A stretch of 35,318 nt of DNA. Source: Bacillota bacterium. Lineage in GTDB: Bacteria > Bacillota > Sulfobacillia > Sulfobacillales > Sulfobacillaceae. Below, one piece after another: positions 21,624 through 24,275 of the stretch; within the stretch, counting starts at the first letter, position 1; each line of letters begins with the position of its first letter. The notes beneath the pieces are model-generated. The model was not told the DNA's origin. It worked only from the letters and a program-made list of their open reading frames with translations, and did not search any database. Both the position numbers and the translations under genes were made by a program. Location of the stretch: positions 1 through 35,318 of the forward strand of contig JAKBWA010000077.1 of assembly GCA_021841025.1 (NCBI GenBank), written 5' to 3'.

Positions 21624-21875
21624 TTATGACTGTTCGTTGTCATCCTTGGCCATATTGGTGACCATATGGGCCAGGGTTTCTTTCTCTGGTCGTCCGCTGT
21701 TTTTCCACATCCGTTTTGCTACACGGTCCTGCGGACTTTTAGGTTTCACCCCGGACTGGAGCATAGAATTTCCCATGTCCACGACATCCTCGGGAACATC
21801 ATATTCCCCTTTGCGAAGCTTCTCAGCTGCACGGGACTTCAATTCTCGAAACGACTGCGGAACACCCTTAGCCAA
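21624..21875 (-). CDS. unknown 83-residue basic protein
   Basis: TTG start with AAGGAGGG six bases upstream, a strong signal. The product is hydrophilic and rich in Lys, Glu, Asp, Ser and Met, with no membrane segment: FRELKSRAAEKLRKGEYDVP, then VDMGNSMLQSGVKPKSPQDR. It may be helical and bind nucleic acid, but no family was recognised. It stands alone, divergent from the holin-like gene, and a 15-base palindrome lies between the two. Confidence 0.7.
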   Translation of the reverse strand: MAKGVPQSFRELKSRAAEKLRKGEYDVPEDVVDMGNSMLQSGVKPKSPQDRVAKRMWKNSGRPEKETLAHMVTNMAKDDNEQS

Positions 21876-21903
21876 AGGAATCCCTCCTTGGTGTGTCAGT
21901 TTG

Positions 21904-21918
21904 TGGAGCCAGGCTCCA
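21904..21918. promoter_or_regulatory. 15-base perfect palindrome between divergent genes
   Basis: TGGAGCC-A-GGCTCCA lies 29 bases upstream of the 83-residue gene and 93 bases upstream of the holin-like gene. Its place and symmetry suit an operator for a dimeric regulator; no known binding site was matched. Confidence 0.35.
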
Positions 21919-22010
21919 TGGCTAGTCTGTGCTTTTCTAAGAGAACTATGAGAGGAATAATTCGGACTCAGCTAAGCCACACTAAATCGCAGGATAAGGA
22001 GGTGAACGAA

Positions 22011-22343
22011 ATGAGCTGGATAGGGATGATTGTTCGGTTCATCGTTGCAGCACTCGTGCTAATGGTAATGGGCTACGTTGTACCCGGATTTTCTCCCATA
22101 GGATTTTGGTCGGCATTACTAGCAGCACTGGTTATTGCCTTAGTGGGATATATCATTGAAGCGATGTTTGGTAAATCGGTTTCACCCTACGGCCGTGGTT
22201 TGGTAGGATTTTTAGTCTCAGCGGTGGTTATATATTTTACCCAGTTTCTAGTACCTGGTATGCATGTCTCTATTCTGGGCGCATTAATAGCAGCCTTCCT
22301 GATCGGATTGGTTGATTTGTTTATTCCAACCGCAGTCAGGTAG
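22011..22343 (+). CDS. small membrane protein of the phage-holin superfamily IV type
   Basis: 110 residues with three or four hydrophobic helices (MIVRFIVAALVLMVMGYVV, FWSALLAALVIALVGYIIEA, GLVGFLVSAVVIYFTQFLVP, LGALIAAFLIGLVDLFIP). This glycine-rich pattern matches small chromosomal proteins labelled phage holin family (YvlD/superfamily IV) found in many Firmicutes, where they are not part of a prophage. Function is unknown; a role in envelope stress is possible. AAGGAGGTGAACGAA directly before the ATG is a near-perfect ribosome binding site. A longer frame upstream lacks such a site. The gene ends in a strong shared terminator. Confidence 0.8.
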   Translation: MSWIGMIVRFIVAALVLMVMGYVVPGFSPIGFWSALLAALVIALVGYIIEAMFGKSVSPYGRGLVGFLVSAVVIYFTQFLVPGMHVSILGALIAAFLIGLVDLFIPTAVR

Positions 22344-22357
22344 CCATCAATCACGAA

Positions 22358-22391
22358 AAAGCCGCCCGATCCATATAGACCGGGCGGCTTT
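22358..22391. terminator. bidirectional terminator between convergent genes
   Basis: AAAGCCGCCCG and CGGGCGGCTTT pair perfectly over 11 bases, with A and T runs on the outer sides, so it can stop both the holin-like gene and the convergent 570-residue gene. Confidence 0.88.
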
Positions 22392-22403: not shown

Positions 22404-24116
22404 CTATTTAATGCGTAAAGACGGTTTCGAGACATTCTTGACAATGATATAATCCCACATTCCCGAACTGGACTGGCCGTCAGGAACGGCACTAATGACA
22501 GCATAGCGCCCCTTATGAGCCGCCACGAAATGAAAATGCTGAACCACCCCGTGTCCCACCCCCTGGGTTGGATTGGGAGTGAATGCGTTATGGAAAGCGG
22601 GCGTGAAAGGTCCTCCTTTTCGCAGCTGCGAAATAGGGACAATCATAGCACTGTTTTTTAAGATAACCTGATCGTTTGTAAAAGTCGCGTCCACGGTCCA
22701 CCCTTGAGGGATGATAATGGTGAGAAAGCCATTGGCATAGCCATCAAAAGCCAGGGAGCCAAATTGGTTGACAGATGCTGTTAAGAATAAATGCACTTGA
22801 TGCCTGGATGCATTATATTGCAGCCACTTATTCGGAGACGGAGCCGGTTTTTTTGTCCGACTGGATTCTTGGGACGAAACAGATGAAGCCTTCTGGACAG
22901 CGGGGTGGTGTCCAGAAGGGGCAGGACTATCACCTTGGGCTACTACGGCTTGAGGAATGGCAAACCCTAAAAATAGGAGCAGGCTGGTAACAAGCCCAGT
23001 GGATGCGAGTACGTAAGCAGTCATTCTCTTAGTGTTCAACTCACGGTGAGCTTTATGGGCAGAACCCTCCTCAAATTGATCGGCATAGTACCAGCCTCCC
23101 ACCATAAAGAGCAGAGCTAAAGGCGCAGACTGTGGGTCTGTCCCCACTCCTCCGACAATCCCAAAATCCTGCCCTAACCACCAGCTTGCCACAAGCCACA
23201 GAATAGTGACTATCCAAAACGATTTCCCTGCTTTGTTGAATAATAAAGCCAACCCCAAATATGCCATGATGGCCACCATGAGCCCGTTGTAAAACAACGG
23301 GTGAAGACTCGACTGATGCATCATCCAGGCAATCGGTGCCACCAGCACGTGTGGTTGAGGCATAAGAGTGTTATTGCGGAAAATATTGTGCAGTCCTGCG
23401 GACGACCAATATCCGGGCATCGCTTGAAACCCTGCCAAAAGCAGCCAAATTCCTCCCATGACGTACCGTGACCACTGTTTTACCTGTCCTGATTTCCAGA
23501 ACTTAGGTGGCAACAACAGCCAAACTGCTCCCAAAATGTAAAACACTACGGCTCCTGGGGTTCCTGTTAACCACGAAGCCCCAGACGAAAACAAATTCCC
23601 TAGTCCTTCACCATAGATCCATACGGGAAGACTCCAAGCCAGTGACACATACAGACCAATACGGCCTAAAGGACGCCCGTATCCCAACAAAATTGCGGCG
23701 CCGATAAATACCTGAATAAGCACAGCAAATATCGCTGAAGCTATCTGGTGAGTGGTCCAAGCTTGAATACCGGCTCCTAATAGGGCAATGAGCCAATGCG
23801 GTTGAGAGGACAAATTTGTCGCTACATCCATGTCAACAAACATGCTCGTCGCCATGGGAGGCTGGGCCTGCAACAAACCATCAATTAGCCACAGTACTCC
23901 TAACCCCCACCACAAAATACGATATCCTCGAGGATAATCAAGTCTCTTTTTCTCAGGCTGGTTTGAGGATGAGTTCGGATGACTCTCGTAGCGAATATGC
24001 GTAAAAAACCATCCCAATAGAACGAGCAACAAAAGAACACCGCTAACCTGAAACAAGGAGACATAAAACACGTGCAAGGTCGCCGGATTGATATGATTCA
24101 ATAGAGAATAAGGCAT
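22404..24116 (-). CDS. polytopic membrane protein fused to a sulfocyanin-like domain without most copper ligands
   Basis: Residues 1 to about 400 hold ten or so membrane helices, including RILWWGLGVLWLIDGLLQAQ and VWIYGEGLGNLF; similar integral proteins of unknown role occur in Actinobacteria. After a Pro/Ser-rich linker (about 405-435), residues about 440-565 align by eye with sulfocyanin, an acid-stable blue-copper protein: FDGYANGFLTIIIPQGWTVD, FTNDQVILKNSAMIVP, AFTPNPTQGVGHG, and YAVISAVPDGQSSSGMWDYI. Sulfocyanin has His before S-A-V-I-V, then Cys, His and Met near the end. Here the first His is Asn, Cys is Ser, the second His is missing and only Met remains. It probably cannot hold type-1 copper. 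The domain should face outside. Start ATG with AGGAG 10 bases upstream; single gene. Confidence 0.65.
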   Translation of the reverse strand: MPYSLLNHINPATLHVFYVSLFQVSGVLLLLVLLGWFFTHIRYESHPNSSSNQPEKKRLDYPRGYRILWWGLGVLWLIDGLLQAQPPMATSMFVDMDVATNLSSQPHWLIALLGAGIQAWTTHQIASAIFAVLIQVFIGAAILLGYGRPLGRIGLYVSLAWSLPVWIYGEGLGNLFSSGASWLTGTPGAVVFYILGAVWLLLPPKFWKSGQVKQWSRYVMGGIWLLLAGFQAMPGYWSSAGLHNIFRNNTLMPQPHVLVAPIAWMMHQSSLHPLFYNGLMVAIMAYLGLALLFNKAGKSFWIVTILWLVASWWLGQDFGIVGGVGTDPQSAPLALLFMVGGWYYADQFEEGSAHKAHRELNTKRMTAYVLASTGLVTSLLLFLGFAIPQAVVAQGDSPAPSGHHPAVQKASSVSSQESSRTKKPAPSPNKWLQYNASRHQVHLFLTASVNQFGSLAFDGYANGFLTIIIPQGWTVDATFTNDQVILKNSAMIVPISQLRKGGPFTPAFHNAFTPNPTQGVGHGVVQHFHFVAAHKGRYAVISAVPDGQSSSGMWDYIIVKNVSKPSLRIK

Positions 24117-24275
24117 TATCCATATCTCCTAGTTCAAATTATGTCCATAAACATATTGTGATTGTAATACAAGTTCACCGCAGTTTACATAAGAATTTGG
24201 TCTGCTACTTGTAATTCCTCATCTACGTCTATAAACAAGCGAAAGACAAGTCTTTCTGGGTGCTGCGAATCCCAC

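Follow-up and report, generated by a model that had tools for sequence, protein, structure and literature searches.

The question raised by this locus is why a sulfocyanin domain should be joined to a multi-helix membrane protein when most of the residues that bind copper in its relatives are absent. The gene lies in a window (the whole stretch of DNA analysed here) of 35,318 nucleotides, and its features are as follows:

22404-24116 (-), fusion coding sequence, 570 amino acids with an ATG start; membrane domain plus ligand-free sulfocyanin domain, orthologs known
24126-24130 (-), ribosome-binding site AGGAG, read from the sequence
23493-23939 (-), membrane domain, first repeat half, residues 60-208, with E170 and the GxPG motif
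23061-23489 (-), membrane domain, second repeat half, residues 210-352, with N277 and WWLGQDFG..GTDP
22929-23027 (-), last transmembrane segment, residues 364-396, ending in V-x-A-Q-G-D, conserved in the alignment
22827-22928 (-), variable linker, residues 397-430
22407-22826 (-), SoxE/sulfocyanin domain, residues 431-570, from profile matches
22653-22655 (-), Asn488, at the first His ligand position in alignments
22491-22493 (-), Ser542, at the Cys ligand position in alignments
22473-22475 (-), Gln548, at the second His ligand position in alignments, preceded by a one-residue insertion
22458-22460 (-), Met553, at the axial ligand position in alignments, retained
22356-22391 (no strand), terminator-like hairpin with a T-run between convergent genes, read from the sequence

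With AGGAG upstream and, on inspection of the sequence, a GC-rich hairpin followed by a T-run 3' of it, the fusion gene looks monocistronic. The terminator is common to this gene and a convergent open reading frame at 21666-22343 (+), which has a small holin-like membrane protein as its C-terminal part and which adjoins the fusion in S. benefaciens as well. The nearest named orthologs of the fusion are those of S. benefaciens AMDSBA1 and of a Bacillota MAG; comparison of the fusion loci found no conserved neighbours, the gene context varying between species.

The C-terminal domain is a true member of the sulfocyanin family, as the earlier note had supposed: PF06525 (SoxE) matches residues 431-565 with E=1.1e-9 and 38.5 bits, above the Pfam cut-off of 21. 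The sulfocyanin model TIGR03094 also matches (9.3e-11, 41.5 bits), below its equivalog cut-off of 168.4, a strict one, since the copper-intact sulfocyanin of L084 falls short of it too with 62.5 bits. The rusticyanin model TIGR03095 gives 13.6 bits (cut-off 146.7), and there is no match to COX2 (PF00116) in the fusion up to E=10. Twelve relatives from the same class all carry the ligands H, C, H and M; at these positions the fused domain has N488, S542, Q548 and M553, and its ligand loop is one residue longer (PDGQSSSGM, versus PGHAAMGM in the relatives). The profile-profile alignment of the fusion set with the copper-competent set is unambiguous (99.9%, 1e-36), and alignment to rusticyanin 1RCY, whose ligands are His85, His143, Cys138 and Met148 (PMC10654088), agrees on the changes of H to N, C to S and H to Q. 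Thus three of the four ligands are lost and the axial Met is kept, which corrects the earlier note's heading of a domain without its copper ligands.

Asn, Ser, Gln and Met are found in all eight fusion copies. Seven of these copies have no cysteine at all and the eighth has one, within a membrane helix, so that no copy has an extramembrane Cys from which a type-1 copper site could be rebuilt; supply of the ligands from shifted positions, which the earlier note had raised against its own proposal, is thereby ruled out for this type of site. On these sequence grounds the fused domain is almost certainly not a blue-copper protein. That it might bind another metal, or copper weakly, by way of non-classical ligands (Met553 and His527, for example) draws on the invariance of both residues across the fusion clade. 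We consider this improbable, given that Cys is absent, that Asn, Ser and Gln bind copper poorly, and that His527 should, by strand alternation, face away from the pocket.

The absence of three ligands could also be read as the mark of a decaying or mis-assembled gene. This is refuted by the identical residues at the ligand positions in eight copies from seven genomes and by the low dN/dS of the sulfocyanin domain, about 0.04-0.11 in five pairs, and the reading retains next to no probability. The most reliable of these pairs is L067/L068 (0.046/0.62, ratio 0.07), because dS is near saturation in most of them. Identity of the orthologs to the window protein is 59-85% across the sulfocyanin domain but falls to 21-52% in the linker, which drifts. 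The sulfocyanin domain is therefore under purifying selection, and the gene is neither a pseudogene nor an artefact.

Where did such a domain come from? In the main tree, which was built without the ligand columns, the fusion clade (support 100/99) and copper-intact sulfocyanins are sister groups, with support of 99/93. A more widely sampled tree joins the fusion clade first to L205, an HCDM protein on a long branch, and splits up the copper-intact sisters, which leaves the identity of the sister group less certain than the main tree would suggest. Four of the five nearest copper-intact relatives are encoded directly beside a gene for a NirK-like multicopper oxidase. Descent from a copper sulfocyanin, the first part of the note's proposed origin in an iron-oxidation electron carrier, is accordingly what the main tree supports. 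A specific tie to iron oxidation is not supported: those relatives adjoin the NirK-like oxidase, and relatives of the membrane domain have links to genes for SCO1/SenC, rusticyanin-like and cytochrome c-sulfocyanin proteins (below). Among 154 genomes of the class that were searched, the fusion is present in six of the eight species of Sulfobacillus, and it is absent from one complete genome of 3,317,203 bp. A further copy, in genome G030 of another genus, is identical to one in G002; it lies at a contig end in a 63%-complete genome, so it is probably mis-binned and was excluded as evidence of a second genus. Setting this copy aside, the fusion is confined, among these genomes, to the acid-loving genus Sulfobacillus.

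Loss of the copper site is widespread among the sulfocyanins of this genus. Of 34 classified SoxE-domain proteins in Sulfobacillus, 29 are without copper ligands and five are intact; the former fall into the NSQM class of the fusion (7), a lipoprotein-like NSHM class (7) and a second lipoprotein-like group, E-[DN]-[DNG]-x (15; here "E class"). No intact sulfocyanin was found in the window's genome or in the genome that carries the S. benefaciens AMDSBA1 ortholog. Both lipoprotein-like groups extend to other genera of the class, alongside partial losses such as HCQM and SCQM. Proteins that keep the Cys (HCQM, NCQM and SCQM, at L233, L216, L210, L211, L213 and L215) are all in one other genus, and they may represent intermediate stages in the loss of copper. 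On the best trees the ligand losses take three changes, and five under wider sampling; an AU test does not reject a single clade for all of the ligand losses (p 0.07-0.16).

Members of the E class are encoded upstream of oxidase subunits II, I and III; at L098:7142-12203 and L099:1696-6416, for example, the gene in this position is a fully ligand-free sulfocyanin-like lipoprotein. These loci match the published gene order Sulth_0453, 0451, 0450, 0449, a cluster described as an iron-oxidation candidate that includes a 'SoxE' (PMC6315122), and from this gene order we infer that Sulth_0453 is itself ligand-free. Iron oxidation in Sulfobacillus is unresolved, sulfocyanin being the usual candidate carrier (PMC4062416, PMC6315122, PMC6803676). 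As most Sulfobacillus sulfocyanins have no copper site, the role of electron carrier assumed for them in iron oxidation needs re-testing, and with the ligand-free type beside the terminal oxidase in the Sulth_0449-0453 order, an expression signal taken for that of a copper carrier may reflect a non-copper protein.

The other half of the fusion is an undescribed, internally duplicated family. Neither residues 1 to about 400 nor the standalone relatives of the domain that were tested have a family match in Pfam or NCBIfam, and phmmer of the whole fusion protein against the PDB returned a chance match only. The two halves of the membrane domain are homologous to each other (98.7% probability, E 3e-16 by profile-profile comparison). 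The ten or so helices first counted are consistent with four in each of the homologous halves and two more that flank them, although a hydropathy scan alone shows fewer. AlphaFold2 models made with three sequences each were too poor to use and were discarded (mean pLDDT 35 for the whole protein and 29 for the domain alone). In the family alignment E170, N277 and a G-x-P-G motif are among the invariant or near-invariant residues, and no His or Cys is conserved, so that binding of heme or copper by this domain is unlikely. The family is rare, occurring in 8 of 398 genomes across the phylum. DoxX was considered as a possible assignment and found no support in Pfam (E=4.9, 8.3 bits, cut-off 23.6); the standalone relatives have no DoxX match in Pfam, and hhalign of the membrane domain against DoxX/DoxD gave no significant score, in a comparison in which the DoxX-versus-DoxD positive control likewise failed.

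The V-x-A-Q-G-D after the last transmembrane segment is a possible signal-peptidase site. It occurs as V-[VE]-A-Q-G-D in all eight copies, at the head of an otherwise variable linker, and cleavage there would free a soluble, metal-free sulfocyanin, the fusion then being only a device for co-expression. A long multi-helix domain ahead of the last helix is unlike a normal signal peptide, and we think such processing rather unlikely.

The relatives of the membrane domain point to its associations. We tallied the partners of 20 loci (L126-L145) that had been fetched solely for carrying this domain, leaving out loci chosen through a SoxE gene. In eight of them a SCO1, rusticyanin-like or SoxE gene is fused to the membrane domain or lies no more than 3 kb away, and the partner genes in the tally are mostly on the same strand, several overlapping. 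With 0-4 SCO1 and few cupredoxin genes per genome, chance would, by rough estimate, account for such proximity in only a few percent of cases. On the membrane-domain tree these partnerships appear repeatedly, in separate branches. At L019/L133:6155-8134 (+) the domain is fused to a SCO1/SenC domain in which the CxxxC and His are present. Five loci (L047, L049, L053, L078 and L038) encode cytochrome c fused to a copper-intact sulfocyanin, and in the first four of these a membrane-domain gene follows immediately. At L237:3539-5170 (-) a single 544-amino-acid open reading frame combines SCO1/SenC, a thioredoxin-like part and a ligand-free (NSHM) sulfocyanin; Pfam recognises only the first (as SCO1/redoxin) and the last (as SoxE), and the thioredoxin-like middle was judged by eye. 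There are thus three fusion pairings, membrane domain with SCO1 (L019), membrane domain with sulfocyanin (the window) and SCO1-thioredoxin-like with sulfocyanin (L237).

The reading we prefer, and to which we would give an even chance, is that these proteins are membrane-tethered, metal-free cupredoxins that dock proteins which normally partner copper carriers, probably as part of copper/thiol assembly linked to SCO1. The binding or scaffold role put forward in the earlier note is plausible. A gene for a membrane protein, of a family that elsewhere adjoins SCO1/SenC and copper carriers and that may serve extracytoplasmic copper and thiol proteins, would have been fused with one for a sulfocyanin, the copper ligands giving way to near-isosteric polar residues (Asn for His, Ser for Cys, Gln for His) whose similar size would preserve the sulfocyanin shape while abolishing the redox centre. 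The sulfocyanin domain, presumably outside the membrane, would then dock proteins that recognise copper carriers, such as a SCO-type chaperone, an oxidase or another carrier, without transferring electrons, and the membrane part would hold the docked partners together for assembly or delivery. The SCO1 link is a property of the relatives of each half and not of the fusion gene, so the argument for docking is in part one of analogy. More tentatively, sulfocyanins of this class may have lost copper repeatedly and under selection, in this way yielding a metal-free docking module that serves SCO1-linked copper/thiol assembly and is built in the three fusion combinations above.

The principal competitor, for which we see perhaps half the likelihood of docking, places the activity in the membrane domain (binding of a quinone or other small molecule, for example) and makes the ligand-free cupredoxin an extracytoplasmic cap that stabilises or gates it. 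The invariant polar residues E170 and N277 and the G-x-P-G motif would suit such an activity, 33 of the 62 members of the membrane family (many with short flanks) have no cupredoxin or SCO1 gene in view nearby, and the cupredoxin domain of quinol oxidase subunit II, which lacks CuA, is a precedent. The cupredoxin of the fusion, however, is conserved about equally with the membrane domain, beyond what a mere cap would need, and the relatives pair repeatedly with copper or thiol proteins.

Copper-free cupredoxins as such are generally familiar from quinol oxidase subunit II and the plant nodulin-like proteins. Subunit II (CyoA) has a membrane-tethered cupredoxin domain without a copper site, as the fusion does, but the fusion has no COX2 match, a different membrane part and no oxidase operon. 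Plant early nodulin-like proteins are likewise membrane-anchored cupredoxins, considered to have given up copper while retaining a binding role, but they are eukaryotic, GPI-anchored and of the unrelated phytocyanin family. They form a phytocyanin subfamily defined partly by the ligand residues (PMC10048054). Rusticyanin resembles the fused domain over 124 positions of the profile alignment and differs in its intact ligands and, as above, in the score of its model. Sulfocyanin SoxE itself shares family membership by profile, a blue-copper ancestry and the axial Met, and the fusion departs from it in the replacement of Cys and both His, in its place behind about ten helices and in falling far under the TIGR03094 cut-off. 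Our literature search found no report of a copper-free sulfocyanin, of its fusion to this unnamed membrane family or of its prevalence in Sulfobacillus. Should the reading given here be correct, models of electron transport in bioleaching are misled where proteins are annotated by PF06525 alone, and a new use of the cupredoxin fold, one outside redox chemistry, can be put to the test.

Sulfocyanins joined to membrane proteins, an arrangement that had struck the earlier note as unusual, are indeed uncommon, but this is not the sole example. At L238:2935-4485 (-) and L239:408-1994 (+), in another genus of the same class, cytochrome b is fused to a sulfocyanin domain that likewise lies C-terminal to the multi-helix membrane protein, differing from the fusion in its intact copper ligands and in the nature of the membrane part. 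These proteins possibly provide a direct route from quinol to cupredoxin.
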